From contig NC_010718.1 of the NCBI RefSeq assembly GCF_000020005.1, forward strand, positions 1,617,001-1,681,000: a stretch of 64,000 bases of DNA. Reading direction: 5' to 3'. The notes under the pieces were generated by a model. That model ran no database searches and was not told where the DNA came from. It was given only the letters and a program-made list of their open reading frames with translations. The position numbers were made by a program, and so were the translations under genes. Shown piece after piece: positions 6,538-30,396 of the stretch. Origin of the DNA: Natranaerobius thermophilus JW/NM-WN-LF. GTDB lineage: Bacteria; Bacillota; Natranaerobiia; Natranaerobiales; Natranaerobiaceae. How positions within the stretch are numbered: position 1 is the first letter of the stretch; each line of letters starts with the position of its first letter.

Positions 6538-7572
6538 CTAATATCTTATATAAATATCTTCATCTTCTAGGTGTTCTACTCCTTCATTTGTTACTTCTGT
6601 TTCATCAAGATTAACCACTTTTAAACTATCAGCTTCTGCCAGTTCTTTTACTCCTTCATCTGTTACATCGGTATCCCAAAGATCAAGCTCTTCCAAACTA
6701 TCAGTTTCAGCTAATGCGTTTACATCTGTGACTTTGGTTTGTTTAAGGTCAAGCTCTTCTAGATTATCTGCTTCTGCTAGATATTTTACTCCTTCATTTG
6801 TTATTTCCGTTCCATCAAGATGAAGCATTTCTAAATTGTCTGCTTCTGCCAGGTATTCTACTCCATTATCTGTTACTTCAGTCCATCCAAGAATAAGCAC
6901 TTCTAAATTATCTACTTTTACTAGCTGTTCTATTCCCTCATCTGTTACTTCAGTGTCTACAAGACTAAGTTTTTCTAAATTATCAGTTTCCGCAAGGTGT
7001 TCTGCTCCATCATCTGTTACATCGGTTCCGTGAAGATCAAGCTTTTTTAAGTTATCTGCTTCTATTAAGTGTTCTAACCCGTCATCTGTTACTTCGGTTC
7101 CGCTAAGAATAAGCCTTTCTAAACTTTCAGATTCCGCTAGGAGTTTTGTTCCTTCATCTGTTACATCCGTATGGGTAAGACTAATCTGTTTTAAATTATC
7201 AGCTTCTGCTAACTGTTCTATTCCTTCATCTGTTATTTCCGTATAGTTGAGATTGAGCTCTTCTAAATTATCCACTTCTGCGAGTGTATTCACATCTTCT
7301 ATTTTGGTTCCTTGAAGGCTAAGTTCTTGTAAATTGATTGCATATTCAATTCCTTTGATATTTATATCTTCACCACTTACAGTCAAAGTTGTTAAATCTT
7401 CAATATTTTCTTCAGTTATTTGCTCTACACCTAGTTCTTCCTTAATTGCTGCTTTTAAGTTTTCATCTTGTACATCCACTTCATACTCCTCTGGAGTACA
7501 ACCTATCGTAAAAGAGATTAAAATTGTTAAACTTGCTGCTATTGCTAAATAAGCTAATTTCCTTAGTGACAA
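6538..7572 (-). CDS. Leucine-rich-repeat lipoprotein
   Basis: 344 residues, TTG start at 7572 behind GAGGTGG. A lipoprotein signal ends F-T-I-G-C (Cys25). After a short segment come about eleven tandem repeats of 23-25 residues with consensus L-x-x-L-x-L-x-x-T-x-V-T-D-E-G-V-x-x-L-A-E-A-D-N. This V-T-D-E-G type resembles the cysteine-containing-like LRRs common in Planctomycetes more than the internalin type. The chain is strongly acidic. A binding or scaffold role at the cell surface is inferred. The signal peptide and about 60 bp of upstream DNA match those of the LRR gene at 22512-24008. Confidence 0.85.
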   Translation of the reverse strand: MSLRKLAYLAIAASLTILISFTIGCTPEEYEVDVQDENLKAAIKEELGVEQITEENIEDLTTLTVSGEDINIKGIEYAINLQELSLQGTKIEDVNTLAEVDNLEELNLNYTEITDEGIEQLAEADNLKQISLTHTDVTDEGTKLLAESESLERLILSGTEVTDDGLEHLIEADNLKKLDLHGTDVTDDGAEHLAETDNLEKLSLVDTEVTDEGIEQLVKVDNLEVLILGWTEVTDNGVEYLAEADNLEMLHLDGTEITNEGVKYLAEADNLEELDLKQTKVTDVNALAETDSLEELDLWDTDVTDEGVKELAEADSLKVVNLDETEVTNEGVEHLEDEDIYIRY

Positions 7573-15223: not shown

Positions 15224-16483
15224 TTAATTATTTTCTATTTCTACATACCCATACTCTCCATCTATGATAATAACAGCTGTTTCTTTGGAAATATGTCCTA
15301 ACCAGTCAATGTCGGGATCTACTTTAAATTCAATTTCACCGTCTAAATTATAAATTGTCTGTTGTTCACCAGTATCTACACTAACAAAGCCCTCACCTTC
15401 GTAAGGCCAGGCTGAGAGATAATTTGGTTCGATAATGTACTCTCCTTCCTCATTTATAAAACCATCCTTGCCGTCTTTTTGAACCCGATTTATACCATCT
15501 TTAAAAATGTCTGCTCCTGTATATTGAGGTTCTATTATATAATCACCTTTTTGGTTGATATATCCAATCTTTCCCTCAAAGTTTGTTACAGAAGCCATTC
15601 CATCTCTGAATTCATTGGCAGTTTTAAACTGAGGCTCAATGGCGTATTCCCCCGACTTATCAATAAATCCCCAAAGTTCAACATGTTCTTTAACTTCAGT
15701 TTTGTCATCATTAAGTTCTCTTTCCACTTCAATGTAGTCTTCAATGCTTACGGCAGCTAGCTCTTCCTGGCCAGTAAAAGAACGAGCGTTATTAAATTTT
15801 GGTTCAATCACATATTCTCCTTTTTCATCAATGAAACCCCATAAATCAGTATCTTTACATTCAACGGCAGCCAGGCCTTTTGAAAAATTCTTAGCTCTGG
15901 AATAGTTGGGATCTATTATATATTCACCTTCTTTATTTATATAACCATAATAATTTCCATCCTTTTCATGAGGACTAGCTACAATCAGGTTATTCGCTAT
16001 CGTTGGCTTAAGACTATCAAAAACAGGCTCTATGACGTAGTTCCCTTTTTCGTCTATAATCCCTTGCTTGCCATCTAATTCAACTAGTGCTATTCCGTCA
16101 TTAAAAGATAAAGCTCGATCAAATTTGGGTTCTTTCAGGTATTCACCTGTTTTGTCTATATAGCCACTTTCTCCATCCAATCGGATGGAAGAATATCCCT
16201 CTGAAAATCGAGAAGCGTGTTCATACTTAGGTTCAATCTCTTCTTTCCCATCCTCATCTACAAATCCCCATAAACCGTCTAATTTAACCCTAGCTAGCCC
16301 TTCAGAAAAAGGCCAGGCATCTTCATATTTAGGTTCTACAATAAAATTAAAATCTTCGATTCCTTTTACTGTTGTAGTTGGCTCTTCCATTTCCTTCGAC
16401 TCTTTTACTTCCGTTTCATTATTACAGCCAACTAGAATTAAGAGAGTAAATAAAAAAACAATTAGCAATCTCCGTGATGTCAA
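15224..16483 (-). CDS. WG-repeat lipoprotein
   Basis: 419 residues, TTG start after AGGAGGCGAGG. Signal with lipobox I-L-V-G-C. From residue 50 onward about eight WG/KWG-type repeats follow the pattern W/Y-G-F/Y-I-D-E-K-G-E-Y-I-I-E-P-x-Y-x-x-A-x-x-F-x-x-G-L-A-x-V. The repeats form short beta units found in many surface and inhibitor-like proteins whose ligands are mostly unknown. Very acidic. Single gene; its upstream region carries a copy of the motif found before the LRR lipoprotein gene at 6538-7572. Confidence 0.85.
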   Translation of the reverse strand: MTSRRLLIVFLFTLLILVGCNNETEVKESKEMEEPTTTVKGIEDFNFIVEPKYEDAWPFSEGLARVKLDGLWGFVDEDGKEEIEPKYEHASRFSEGYSSIRLDGESGYIDKTGEYLKEPKFDRALSFNDGIALVELDGKQGIIDEKGNYVIEPVFDSLKPTIANNLIVASPHEKDGNYYGYINKEGEYIIDPNYSRAKNFSKGLAAVECKDTDLWGFIDEKGEYVIEPKFNNARSFTGQEELAAVSIEDYIEVERELNDDKTEVKEHVELWGFIDKSGEYAIEPQFKTANEFRDGMASVTNFEGKIGYINQKGDYIIEPQYTGADIFKDGINRVQKDGKDGFINEEGEYIIEPNYLSAWPYEGEGFVSVDTGEQQTIYNLDGEIEFKVDPDIDWLGHISKETAVIIIDGEYGYVEIENN

Positions 16484-19763: not shown

Positions 19764-20453
19764 TTATTCTTCTACTATAATTTCTAACACGTCAGTTTCT
19801 AAACCTGTCCGCTCTTTGATTTCAGAATCTACTTCCATTTCTACTGTAGTTCCTTTTTCAATTTCCTCGAATGTTAACCAAAAGGAGTGCCCACTTACAC
19901 TACTCCCCTTTCCATGTCTATAATCAATGTCATTTGTTTTAACTACTAACCATCCTTCTGGAGGATTGTCTATTCTTCCTTCCATAAATTTTTCAATAAT
20001 AAAATCATCAAGTTCTGAGGGAAAATCTCGCATTCGTTCAGTAATTTTCAAAGAAAAGTCTTTCAAATCGGTTTCCACTCTTCCATCTGAAGGTATTTCT
20101 TCCCAATTTGAAGTATGTAGAGTTCCGATCGTCAGATCGTATTGGTACCTTGTTTTAGCAACCTCTTTAACTTCTTCCTCGTTTAACTTTCCTAAAGCCT
20201 TTTCTAAAAAGATTGTATAGTGGTCAACTCTTAATTCAGCAGTAGATAAATCTCTTTTCAATTCAGAATAATTTGATCTATACTCTAACTCTTCTTCTAA
20301 TTCATCTATTTCACTTTCTAAATCAGCAATTTCACTTTCTAGCTCCTTCTTTTTTTCTTCGGATACTGTGTTTTCAGTTTCCGTACAAGCTATTGCTATA
20401 AGTGAAATAAGTAATGCTACAATAAACAAACAAAAATGATATTTTTTGTTCAT
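19764..20453 (-). CDS. Coiled-coil lipoprotein, paralogue 1
   Basis: 229 residues, ATG 20453 behind GGAGGAG. Lipobox A-I-A-C. Residues about 30-65 are an acidic heptad coiled coil (E-K-K-K-E-L-E-S-E-I-A-D-L-E-S-E-I), then a helical segment and a beta-rich C-terminal domain containing G-H-S-F-W-L-T-F-E-E-I. Family not recognised. Codons from about residue 15 to 99 are nearly identical in DNA to the paralogue at 21695-22408, while the C-terminal half has diverged. Confidence 0.75.
   Translation of the reverse strand: MNKKYHFCLFIVALLISLIAIACTETENTVSEEKKKELESEIADLESEIDELEEELEYRSNYSELKRDLSTAELRVDHYTIFLEKALGKLNEEEVKEVAKTRYQYDLTIGTLHTSNWEEIPSDGRVETDLKDFSLKITERMRDFPSELDDFIIEKFMEGRIDNPPEGWLVVKTNDIDYRHGKGSSVSGHSFWLTFEEIEKGTTVEMEVDSEIKERTGLETDVLEIIVEE
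20156..20410. repeat. 255-bp near-identical tract, copy 1
   Basis: Base-by-base comparison with 22111-22365 shows one difference and no gap (a G/A difference near 20377/22332). Identity stops abruptly at both ends. It covers the signal-peptide end, coiled coil and following helix of the paired lipoprotein genes. Confidence 0.9.
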
Positions 20454-20485
20454 CTTATCACTCCTCCAAAAGACTATATAAGTAT

Positions 20486-20629
20486 TTAAGCGAAGTCAAT
20501 TCGAAAACTCGGCGTCTTTCTTTTCGCGATCTTAACTATATCTTCCGCATCGTATTCCCACTGTCCTACTCCATGAAACATTTCTCTAATTTCACCTTCT
20601 TCTAATTTTCTAAGTCTGTATGTGGTCAT
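20486..20629 (-). CDS. Small hypothetical protein (47 aa) or gene remnant
   Basis: ATG 20629 to TAA 20486. The peptide begins T-T-Y-R-L-R-K-L-E-E-G-E-I and is rich in charged and aromatic residues, with codon use richer in G/C third positions than neighbours. No clear Shine-Dalgarno is seen. It may be a remnant that arrived with the adjacent acetyltransferase gene. Function unknown. Confidence 0.4.
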   Translation of the reverse strand: MTTYRLRKLEEGEIREMFHGVGQWEYDAEDIVKIAKRKTPSFRIDFA

Positions 20630-20733
20630 CGTTGCGAGAAGACTTTATATAATCATCGTTCAACTCCCATGACATTGATTTGGATAGTTTTTTTCTGTAT
20701 AATATGTATAAATTAACAACAAGGAGAGTAGAA

Positions 20734-21252
20734 ATGAGTGAAATAACAATTAGAGACTTGGAATCAAAAGACTTGCACCGTGTTCTTGAATTGAATGAAG
20801 AGTCGGTGCACTTTTTATCTCCACTGGATATGGATCAGCTTCAGGCATTGATTTATGAGGCGGATATCGCAAAAGTAGCTGAAGTGAGTGGAAGTGTTGA
20901 AGCGTTTGTTTTGGCGTTTCGTGAGAACAGACGTTACGACAGTGTGAATTATCAATGGTTTGCTGGAAAATATGATGCGTTCCTCTATATTGATCGCGTG
21001 GTGGTGTCGGTGGCGATGCATGGTAATGGCATTGGAAAAGCACTTTATAAATCTATTTTGAATTCTACGCGTGTCATGGAGGTTCCTGTAGTTGCCGCAG
21101 AAATTGACATTGAGCCTGAAAACCCTGTTTCACTGCAGTTTCATAAACGCTTCGGTTTTGAAGAAGTGGGTAAACAATCGGTAGCTAATGGTAAAAAAGT
21201 AGTCTCTTTACAAGTGGTCACTCTAAATAATAAGAAACTTCAAGAAAAATAA
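20734..21252 (+). CDS. GNAT acetyltransferase, COG3818-like, probably acquired
   Basis: 172 residues from ATG 20734 with GGAGAG upstream. Begins I-T-I-R-D-L-E-S-K-D-L; the acetyl-CoA loop is V-A-M-H-G-N-G-I-G-K-A-L-Y, with F-H-K-R-F-G-F-E-E-V-G near the end. The gene looks more GC-rich than its surroundings. It is the only forward gene between the two lipoprotein paralogues and is followed by IS-end fragments. Lateral arrival into an existing duplication is inferred. Confidence 0.85.
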   Translation: MSEITIRDLESKDLHRVLELNEESVHFLSPLDMDQLQALIYEADIAKVAEVSGSVEAFVLAFRENRRYDSVNYQWFAGKYDAFLYIDRVVVSVAMHGNGIGKALYKSILNSTRVMEVPVVAAEIDIEPENPVSLQFHKRFGFEEVGKQSVANGKKVVSLQVVTLNNKKLQEK

Positions 21253-21395
21253 ATTCGTTAATACCTCGATACGCTCGGTCATTAGATACTCGTTGGGGCC
21301 TATTCTATAATCACCACCATTGCTACCGCCCTCATATGTAACTTGAATAATTAATCACCAAACTTGTCTTGTAAGCGTCAGCGTCCCGGCTATAG

Positions 21396-21450
21396 ACCAT
21401 GATGTGTCTAAGAATTTATACTTACACAAAAACAATTTATACTAACACCA
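21396..21450. mobile_element. Solo IS3-type end fragments
   Basis: ACCATGATGTGTCTAAGAAT and the bases after it match the right end of the IS at 51373-52634 with about two mismatches. A second partial copy (AATTTATACTAACACCA) follows at 21434-21450. No transposase is present; this is a scar of an earlier insertion. The rest of 21253-21395 is relatively GC-rich with no convincing gene. Confidence 0.65.
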
Positions 21451-21480
21451 AAAGTTTAACTAAAGTAGTATTTTAATAAT

Positions 21481-21514
21481 AATACATACCTTTCCTTTCG
21501 AAAAGGTATGTATT
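21481..21514. terminator. Strong inverted repeat downstream of the GNAT gene
   Basis: AATACATACCTTT pairs with AAAAGGTATGTATT around CCTTTCG. It could act as a bidirectional terminator, although the T-tract is weak. Confidence 0.5.
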
Positions 21515-21635
21515 AATTTATTTTCATATACCCGAATCGAGAACTGATATAGATACCGTCATTCAGGGGTTGTACCAGGTAATAATAGTGGTAATGGTAA
21601 GGTGAATTATCTAAGGTTTCACATAAACCCCGATT
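21513..21635 (-). pseudogene. Tail of a lost PQQ-propeller paralogue
   Basis: The reverse strand encodes C-E-T-L-D-N-S-P-Y-H-Y-H-Y-Y-Y-L, then V-Q-P-L-N-D-G-I-Y-I and R-F-G-Y-M-K-I-N, then TAA. This is collinear with the last 35-40 residues of the propeller gene at 4182-6434. Upstream sequence is unrelated. A second copy of that gene was once here and has been deleted except for its 3' end. Confidence 0.85.
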
Positions 21636-21694
21636 ATTAAAACAATATCATGATTTTTTAAGACACATAAATTATGATATTGTGTCAAGTTATT

Positions 21695-22408
21695 TTATTC
21701 TTCTACTACAATTTCTAACACGTCAGTTTCTAAACCTGTTAGCTCCTTGATTTGCGAATCTACCTCTATTTCTAATGTTGTGCCTCTTTCTATCTCCTCA
21801 AATGTTAACCAAAAAGAGTGCCCTCCAGCTCCTTCTAGACGTTCCCCTATTCCATGTCTATAGTCAACTCCTTCTGTTTTAACTATTAACCATTCTTGTT
21901 CTTCGGGATAATTTTCACCATACTTTAATTTGTTTTCTTCAGCTTTCTCTAAAAAAGAATCACCAAGATCTGGAATAGCCCGCTGCTTTTCACTAATTTC
22001 TACAGAAAATTTTTCTAAATCAGTTTTTACTCTTCCATCTAATGGTATTTCTTCTCTATTCTTAGTAGTTCCAGTTGGTCTAATTGTCAGATCATGTTGA
22101 TACCCTTGTTTAGCAACCTCTTTAACTTCTTCCTCGTTTAACTTTCCTAAAGCCTTTTCTAAAAAGATTGTATAGTGGTCAACTCTTAATTCAGCAGTAG
22201 ATAAATCTCTTTTCAATTCAGAATAATTTGATCTATACTCTAACTCTTCTTCTAATTCATCTATTTCACTTTCTAAATCAGCAATTTCACTTTCTAGCTC
22301 CTTCTTTTTTTCTTCGGATACTGTGTTTTCAATTTCCGTACAAGCTATTGCTATAAGTGAAATAACTACAATAAAAATCAATAAAGAAACAAAATTTTTT
22401 TTGTTCAA
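21695..22408 (-). CDS. Coiled-coil lipoprotein, paralogue 2
   Basis: 237 residues from TTG 22408, aligned with the ATG of paralogue 1; a TTG at 22417 is too close to the GGGGAGG. Lipobox A-I-A-C. The same acidic coiled coil and the same middle region as 19764-20453, then a divergent C-terminal domain that keeps G-H-S-F-W-L-T-F-E-E-I and G-L-E-T-D-V-L-E-I. It is probably a surface lipoprotein. The sharp change from near-identity to divergence suggests gene conversion of the N-terminal half. Confidence 0.75.
   Translation of the reverse strand: MNKKNFVSLLIFIVVISLIAIACTEIENTVSEEKKKELESEIADLESEIDELEEELEYRSNYSELKRDLSTAELRVDHYTIFLEKALGKLNEEEVKEVAKQGYQHDLTIRPTGTTKNREEIPLDGRVKTDLEKFSVEISEKQRAIPDLGDSFLEKAEENKLKYGENYPEEQEWLIVKTEGVDYRHGIGERLEGAGGHSFWLTFEEIERGTTLEIEVDSQIKELTGLETDVLEIVVEE
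22111..22365. repeat. 255-bp near-identical tract, copy 2
   Basis: Partner of 20156-20410 in the same orientation; 254 of 255 positions agree by eye. Confidence 0.9.
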
Positions 22409-22511
22409 TCTTATCAATCCTCCCCTAAATTATATAATTAGAGCGATAGCAATAAACTACACTTGCTTTAAGACACATAAATTAGAAAAAATTCACTATT
22501 CCAAATAGTTA

Positions 22512-24008
22512 TTAATCGTTTTCCTGTAACGGTGAATAAAATGAATAATCTATGTTAACATTTCTTTCTTTCATTTCGTTTATAATTTCTTCTGTTTTAT
22601 CATCATCTTCAAGTTCTTCAGCGAGTTTACTTTTTAAAGATAGCTTTTCAAGGTTTTCCAATTCTAATAGAGGAGATATATCTTTAATTGTATAATCCAG
22701 CTCAGGAGGATAAGAAAGTTTAAGCCACAAATCAAGGTTAAGAACTTTTAATTTTGAAAGACCTTTTAATGGTGTAATATCTTGCACATGAGTACCTCCT
22801 AAGTCTAGCTCTTCTAGCTCTTCTAAAGAAGAAAGGGGTGATATATCACTTATTGGATTAGAGTTTGCAGAAAGTACTCTTAGATTTTCGAGGTTTTTCA
22901 AAGGGAATAAATCACTAATGTTACTGTTAGATATTTGAAGAACCTCTAAATCATCAAGTTCTGATAGTGCACTCACATCTGTTACTTCGGTTCCTCCAAG
23001 GTTAAGTTCTTCTAAATTATCAAGTTCTGCTAATGCATTGATATTTTCTATAGGGTTAATACCTAGAGTAAGTTCTTCTAAATCTCTTAAATTTCTTAAC
23101 GGTTTGATGTTTTTTATGTCATTTTTAACTAAAGAGAGTTTTTGTAAATCTTCTAAGTTTAAAAATCCTAAATCCTCAATTTTATAGCTGTGGATCTCCA
23201 ACTCTTTTAAACTTTTTAATTCTGAAATAGGAGCGAAGTTTTCAATACTGTCATAAAGTTGACCTCCTGGTCCCGATTCTGAAGTTATACTGAGTTTTAC
23301 TATATTATCTAATTCAGCTAGAGAAGAAATATCCTCCACTTCACCTGATATATTCACACTTAATTTTGTATCGTCTTTTAATTCAACAAGTGGATAAAGT
23401 TCTTCTGGTTTACTAGTATGAACTCTCAATTTATCAATATCTTCAAAAACTGACAGATCATCTGGTAATTGTTCAAGTGATATTCTCAATTCCAAATCAT
23501 TAATAGATTCCAAAGTTGCTACATCAGTAACTTCGTTACCTCTTATATCAAGATCTTCTAAATTTTTTGCATGTTGGAGCCCCTCTAAACTGGAAATATT
23601 TTCGCCTCTAGCTCTAAGGTTTTTCAAATCCTTTAAATCTTCTTTTGTAAGCTTTCCTTCTATTTCTAGTTCATTACGGATCGCCTCTTTCAAATTATCA
23701 TCTGGTATTATGATTTCACGGAAATTTGCAACAACCTCTGTATTTTCCTCTATTTCAAACTCAATATATTTTTTATCTATTTCTTCCCCATTCTTTTCCC
23801 ATTTTACAATCTCATAACCTTTCTCTGGTTCAGCTTCTATTGTAACGTCTTCCCCCTCTTCATAAATGCCTTCTCCTTCAATTTTTCCAACATCTTCAGG
23901 ATCAGCTTGTACCTCAACTTCGTATTCTGGAGTGCAACCTGTCGTAAAAGCGATTAAAACTGTTAAACTTGCTACTATTAATAAGTATGCTAATTTTGTT
24001 AGTGACAA
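22512..24008 (-). CDS. Internalin-like LRR lipoprotein with B-repeat module
   Basis: 498 residues, TTG 24008 after GAGGTGG. Lipobox F-T-T-G-C. Residues about 30-95 are the divergent InlB-type B-repeat (G-E-G-I-Y-E-E-G-E-D-V-T-I-E-A-E-P). Then come leucine-rich repeats of 21-23 residues of the SDS22/internalin type (L-E-E-L-N-L-G-G-T-E-V-T-D-V-S-A-L). The order B-repeat then LRR is the reverse of classic internalins. No LPXTG anchor is needed because of the lipid anchor. A ligand-binding surface role is inferred. Confidence 0.85.
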   Translation of the reverse strand: MSLTKLAYLLIVASLTVLIAFTTGCTPEYEVEVQADPEDVGKIEGEGIYEEGEDVTIEAEPEKGYEIVKWEKNGEEIDKKYIEFEIEENTEVVANFREIIIPDDNLKEAIRNELEIEGKLTKEDLKDLKNLRARGENISSLEGLQHAKNLEDLDIRGNEVTDVATLESINDLELRISLEQLPDDLSVFEDIDKLRVHTSKPEELYPLVELKDDTKLSVNISGEVEDISSLAELDNIVKLSITSESGPGGQLYDSIENFAPISELKSLKELEIHSYKIEDLGFLNLEDLQKLSLVKNDIKNIKPLRNLRDLEELTLGINPIENINALAELDNLEELNLGGTEVTDVSALSELDDLEVLQISNSNISDLFPLKNLENLRVLSANSNPISDISPLSSLEELEELDLGGTHVQDITPLKGLSKLKVLNLDLWLKLSYPPELDYTIKDISPLLELENLEKLSLKSKLAEELEDDDKTEEIINEMKERNVNIDYSFYSPLQEND

Positions 24009-30030: not shown

Positions 30031-30396
30031 TCAGTGTGACTGTGGTAGTTTTGAAACTTTATCTAATTCAACTCCTTCAGTTTCAATAGCGTGCTTCTGT
30101 TCAAATACAGCTTCCAATTGTTTATCATCGTTTATCTCAAAAGTATAATTTTTATCTTCACTTACTGTATCACCGTCAACTGCCCAGCCTAAAAATTCAT
30201 ACCCCTCTTCTGGTTCGGCTTTTACCGTAACCTCTTCCCCTTCTTCATAAACACCTTCACCCGAAATTCTTCCTGTTCCTTCAGGCTCAGCTCGTACCTC
30301 TACTTCGTATTCTTCAGGAGAGCAACCCGTGGTAAAAGCCATTAAAACTGTTAAGCTCATTCCTATTATTAAAAAAACTAATTTCCTTCTTAACAT
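30031..30396 (-). CDS. Minimal lipoprotein: signal plus B-repeat only
   Basis: 121 residues. Signal peptide and lipobox F-T-T-G-C are close to the LRR lipoprotein at 22512-24008. Residues 30-98 form the divergent InlB-type B-repeat (G-E-G-V-Y-E-E-G-E-E-V-T-V-K-A-E-P-E-E-G). The chain ends 20 residues later with no effector domain. It is either a natural one-domain protein or a C-terminally truncated member of the family. A real SD (AAGGAG) precedes the ATG. Confidence 0.75.
   Translation of the reverse strand: MLRRKLVFLIIGMSLTVLMAFTTGCSPEEYEVEVRAEPEGTGRISGEGVYEEGEEVTVKAEPEEGYEFLGWAVDGDTVSEDKNYTFEINDDKQLEAVFEQKHAIETEGVELDKVSKLPQSH

Follow-up and report, generated by a model that had tools for sequence, protein, structure and literature searches.

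Genes A and B of Natranaerobius thermophilus, which encode two lipoproteins, are very probably old, diverged paralogues that underwent a recent ectopic gene conversion of ~257 bp, likely from B to A. Both lie in the window, the 64-kb stretch of DNA that was analysed, and a third paralogue, gene C, is found at 277 kb of the chromosome of the same genome (C2:277 kb). This genome (G000) consists of three replicons with 3,191,453 bases in total and a chromosome of 3,165,557; the published replicons of this halophilic alkalithermophile of soda lake origin are CP001034 (3,165,557), CP001035 (17,207) and CP001036 (8,689) (PMC2613243). The following features of the window are referred to below.

19764-20453, minus strand: gene A, a 229-aa coiled-coil lipoprotein with ATG start and lipobox IAC (from the open reading frame, homologues and a structure model).
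19764-20153, minus strand: diverged 3' half of A, a beta-rich domain, whose start differs from B and C by a compensated +1/-1 indel.
19779-19808, minus strand: 30 bp close to the 3' end of A that recur exactly at 21710-21739 in B.
20154-20410, minus strand: probable converted tract, A copy, covering the second half of the signal peptide, the lipobox and the coiled-coil helices, with one mismatch in 257 nt.
20377, minus strand: single difference within the tract, G versus A at 22332, encoding Thr in A and Ile in B.
20734-21252, plus strand: GNAT acetyltransferase gene between A and B (open reading frame, homology).
21695-22417, minus strand: gene B, a 240-aa paralogue of A with TTG start and lipobox IAC (open reading frame, 75% amino acid identity to A).
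21695-22108, minus strand: diverged 3' half of B, 86% identical to C and 92% in its first part.
22109-22365, minus strand: probable converted tract, B copy, with one mismatch relative to 20154-20410.
22512-24008, minus strand: lipoprotein gene with LRR and InlB-B repeats, upstream of B (open reading frame, homology).

Both A and B carry a lipoprotein signal peptide at the N-terminus, with the lipobox read directly from the sequence. An AlphaFold model built on a seven-sequence alignment (mean pLDDT 75) predicted helices at residues 35-61 and 66-89, a short helix at 95-102 and a beta-rich part from residue 106. Pfam and NCBIfam searches with A and B returned sub-threshold matches only, mostly to coiled-coil models, and a Foldseek search against the PDB yielded low TM-scores and no match at E <= 0.001, which leaves no function to be assigned from the fold. 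Between the GNAT gene and B, a ~35-bp repeat at 21396-21430, with ~15 further sites in the genome, may be left over from the end of an insertion sequence and lies clear of the tract.

The preliminary description had reported a 255-bp near-identical match (20156-20410 and 22111-22365), which was borne out and runs on for two further identical bases, to 20154 and 22109. Direct comparison of 20154-20410 with 22109-22365 showed a sole mismatch in 257 nt, G at 20377 versus A at 22332 (plus-strand letters), and the pair is the only repeat of at least 50 bases in the window. In B, the tract corresponds approximately to residues 19-103 and thus takes in the latter half of the signal peptide together with all of the helical half. 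Outside the tract, ungapped identity between A and B drops to 0.70 and 0.57 within 30 bp, and beyond 20154/22109 the match is broken by the compensated indel (A, AAAACAAGG-TA; B and C, AAA-CAAGGGTA). The flanks, including the C-terminal halves, had been described as clearly diverged; the sharp drop in identity agrees with this, but the C-terminal half is unevenly diverged, its last ~60 codons being 82% identical.

Comparison with gene C revealed a mosaic pattern. A, B and C were codon-aligned and identities determined per segment. In the first 22 codon columns, B is closest to C (82%; A/B, 67%; A/C, 56%). Within the tract, A and B are 99.6% identical and both are 84% identical to C. In the 77 columns following the tract, B again resembles C (92%), and A matches B and C at 70% and 68%, respectively, making this the part of the C-terminal half in which A and B are most diverged (69.5%). 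All pairs are ~80% identical in the last 62 columns (A/B, 82%), which contain short A=C and A=B patches. The nearest relative of B therefore switches at the tract borders, from C outside to A inside. None of 20,000 permutations reached the A=B run of 35 variable sites; a B=C run of 14 sites (permutation p = 0.0015) and a short A=C run (p = 0.02) were also detected. Older exchanges may underlie the recent event, with a weak A=C signal.

The silent sites carry most of the argument. While nucleotide identity between A and B is 99.6% in the tract versus 75% downstream of it within the genes, synonymous differences number 0 of 49.5 sites in the tract versus 30.3 of 80.2 downstream (Fisher p = 5e-8; binomial p = 6e-11), and the tract contains a single nonsynonymous difference (1 of 202.5 sites). 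The preliminary description had offered, as an explanation, selection for an identical N-terminus and a variable C-terminus. Formation of heteromers by A and B, for instance, could be a reason for selection to keep their N-terminal coiled-coils the same while the C-terminal half varies. The tract does closely match the predicted helical half, with helices ending at residue 102 and strands beginning at residue 106. However, selection at the protein level leaves silent differences, so that their complete absence at ~50 synonymous tract sites, compared to 38% in the rest of the gene, is left unexplained. These sites are free to vary, as C differs from both A and B at 9 of ~48 of them, and dN/dS of the C-terminal half is ~0.5 and does not exceed 1. 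We therefore regard selection as a very improbable explanation of the identity, although it could have favoured fixation of a converted copy. The other proposal of that description, a very recent gene conversion, is in contrast strongly supported by the lack of synonymous differences in the tract together with flanks in which B groups with C.

A recent segmental or tandem duplication was considered and rejected. Homology between A and B stops ~30 bp outside each gene, which indicates that they are not parts of a duplicated block, and a simple tandem pair of duplicates is made less likely by the GNAT gene, which lies between the two on the opposite strand. An assembly error at the near-repeat, a small residual doubt, is argued against by the one mismatch and by the abrupt and different flanks.

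Taken together, near-identity is confined to a tract with diverged homologous flanks, silent sites within it are identical, and its phylogenetic grouping conflicts with that of its surroundings; the tract is a real and ordinary kind of gene conversion. The mosaic is directly visible in the alignment, and the copying step that we infer from it would have proceeded as follows. A and B would be old, diverged lipoprotein paralogues whose products each combine a coiled-coil with a beta-rich half. They lie ~2 kb apart in the same orientation, and homologous recombination between them would have copied ~257 bp of one gene over the other, starting midway through the signal peptide and ending where the helical half gives way to the beta-rich half; as this exchange would have been non-reciprocal, the GNAT gene would have been left in place. 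The conversion is read from a single genome rather than from between-strain timing or segregation, and its age is relative: with a 95% upper bound on tract dS that we estimate at ~0.06 (3/49.5) versus 0.53 in the rest of the gene, the event would date back no further than about one tenth of the time since A and B split.

Gene C also allows the direction to be addressed. Divergence between A and C is lower in the tract (39/243, 16%) than outside (122/432, 28%; p = 3e-4), whereas divergence between B and C is even (40/243, 16%, versus 66/465, 14%; p = 0.44). The tract thus fits the history of B, making B the likelier donor, and the copying was probably from B to A, an assignment that depends on the single third copy and on even rates along the gene. 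A slower evolution of the coiled-coil part relative to its flanks could weaken it. In the opposite direction, a 5' piece of A would have replaced the matching piece of a C-like B. Because B resembles C to either side of the tract, one replacement in B is as parsimonious as one in A; yet a transfer from A to B predicts a tract ~28% diverged from C instead of the observed 16% (p = 3e-4), and the distance of the tract to C is no greater than that of the remaining B. We thus consider this opposite direction possible but clearly less probable, and keep to B as the donor.

The resemblance to antigenic-variation-like cassettes drawn in the preliminary description did not hold up. Many antigenic-variation systems keep libraries of unexpressed pseudogenes or cassettes (PMC4534519), and such a system would here pair an expression locus that keeps its N-terminus constant with silent cassettes for the C-terminus. 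A, B and C are indeed predicted surface lipoproteins encoded by mosaic paralogues, three genes with swapped segments, and in this they are similar to the segmental gene conversion among paralogous surface-protein genes that underlies antigenic variation (PMC4534519). However, with the tract as query, the genome contained only A, B and C (84%) plus a 29-bp match, a whole-protein search returned A, B and C only, and the DNA of the C-terminal half of B retrieved B, C (87%) and A (72%), followed by noise. All three copies are intact genes, and these genome searches revealed neither silent C-terminal cassettes nor partial copies nor the extra copies of the tract that had been envisaged. Unlike the systems reviewed there (PMC4534519), A, B and C lack an archive of silent donors, we found no single expression site for them, and there is no host, the organism being a free-living soda-lake anaerobe. 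Moreover, the exchanged part is the conserved half rather than a variable part within a constant frame. Antigenic variation is consequently the least probable of the readings considered, at a remote likelihood. A closer parallel to the conversion proposed here is ectopic gene conversion between bacterial paralogues, as described for E. coli rRNA operons (PMC8022953) and for M. tuberculosis antigen loci (PMC13061034). These cases share with A/B a short near-identical tract with diverged borders between paralogues on the same chromosome, and differ in gene family and organism; here, there are three copies and one near-identical event.

Among 40 related genomes, homologues were found only in G001, a related genus of the same family (~32% identity), and in G002, of the same order (30-32%). 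Genome-contig scans with a single protein and with the family alignment, a scan of viral contigs and a plasmid tblastn search gave no further relatives. An LRR lipoprotein gene adjoins the homologue in the window (at B), in G001 (L016) and in G002 (L018, L020), preceding it in the window, G001 and L018 and following it in L020; no LRR gene is adjacent to the homologue at L019 of G002. In the window, a further LRR lipoprotein gene (6538-7572) contains a run of 72-bp direct repeats.

Two copies of the family in G002 are located on transposon-like elements. L020:2454-9029 and L021:2225-8800, each of 6,576 bp, are 100% identical, carry imperfect terminal inverted repeats of ~74 bp and are flanked by 10-bp direct repeats (GGGTATAGAG; TTAGTTATTT), which appear to be target duplications. 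Their cargo comprises the A/B/C homologue, two LRR lipoproteins and a 669-aa open reading frame with only a weak match to an IS1/IS1595-type zinc domain. A related element without the 669-aa frame is present at L018.

In G001, the homologue lies on contig C47 (L016:1-9909) in a row of same-strand genes that includes several lipoproteins. These genes are separated by attC-like repeats of ~180-200 bp, which start with CAATGCATC[AC]GATAACACGATTGTTTGCGC and end with GTCGCAAACAACGGGAACGTTATC[GT]GAAACATT, with small variations, and one of these sites folds well as single-stranded DNA (z = -4.5). Repeats of the same type are also arrayed in N. thermophilus itself (C2:1,098,250-1,111,423) and on a second G001 contig, C43, and define two further features.

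G000, C2:1096369-1111423 (L049:8370 to L050:4423): integron-like array, with a recombinase gene and then many attC-like ~200-bp repeats between genes.
G001, C43 (L051:7355-12848): integron-like array of the same layout.

Tyrosine recombinases that are 54% identical to each other are encoded directly upstream of both arrays (L049:8370-9221 and L051:7355-8521), and blast detected 12 repeats within 15 kb and 5 within 5 kb downstream of them, some partial. Judged from sequence, putative attC-like folded sites are thus found behind a recombinase in both places (G000 C2:1.096-1.111 Mb; G001 C43). As in integron cassette arrays, the genes share one orientation, the ~200-bp repeats contain inverted repeats resembling R''-L''...L'-R', and an IntI/Xer-like tyrosine recombinase precedes them. 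The best PDB match of the recombinase is IntI4 (2a3v), but ~40 residues between two matched stretches are absent, and the integron-integrase model TIGR02249 scores 187.7 with a cutoff of 265. A true IntI integrase with the IntI-specific insertion was therefore rejected. Unlike those of integrons, the R boxes are GATAAC/GTTATC rather than strict RYYYAAC/GTTRRRY. Because of the missing insertion, the low TIGR02249 score and the non-strict R boxes, we refer to the arrays as integron-like. Firmicutes are among the phyla with integrons (PMC8618304); a literature search for Natranaerobius and integrons found nothing relevant. Two lipoproteins encoded in the N. thermophilus array region (L050:1154-2977 and L050:3022-4092) are 86% identical in amino acid sequence to proteins of G002 (L019:1454-3277 and L020:6002-7060), which, given that the two genomes belong to different families, suggests recent horizontal transfer.

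Genes A, B and C were rejected as integron cassettes, as neither blastn nor a motif search detected flanking attC-like sites. The repeat had no blastn match in the window or at locus L015, and a relaxed attC motif gave one lone half-site in the window (0.4 expected by chance per strand) and none in L015.

Mosaicism extends to the leaders of these lipoprotein genes, whose first ~100 bp are common to otherwise unrelated bodies. The leaders of the G002 gene at L019:4781 and of a gene in the N. thermophilus array are 95% identical, although the bodies are dissimilar, whereas the body of L019:4781 resembles relatives at L018 and L020 that have different leaders. Likewise, a WG-repeat lipoprotein gene of the window (15224-16483) shares a leader (83% over 108 bp) with an unrelated gene of a G001 array. 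More generally, window genes at 6538-7572, 15224-16483, 22512-24008 and 30031-30396 have ~100-bp leaders that are ~75-89% identical to those of unrelated lipoproteins. Such matches occur within and between genera, and the histories of leader and body disagree. Constraint on the signal peptide alone would not be expected to yield 95% DNA identity between genera. We do not attribute the A/B event to either the integron-like array or leader exchange.

By itself, the A/B tract is one more clean case of conversion among bacterial paralogues, in which silent sites are numerous enough to exclude an account by selection only. Its value lies in where it leads, as the wider lipoprotein family is unusually mobile and mosaic, with an integron-like array, transposon cargo and mobile leaders; the arrays and the leader exchange merit attention of their own. 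Speculatively, and with a low probability, surface lipoproteins of the Natranaerobiales may be diversified by the combination of an integron-like array, transposons and the exchange of leaders and half-genes, with the A/B tract as a recent product. The recombinase driving the array would then be IntI-like but lack the IntI insertion, and transposons would carry the same families, all in a free-living extremophile. If confirmed, this would represent a route of lipoprotein diversification outside pathogens, together with an integron-like system in an order from which our literature search retrieved no report of one.
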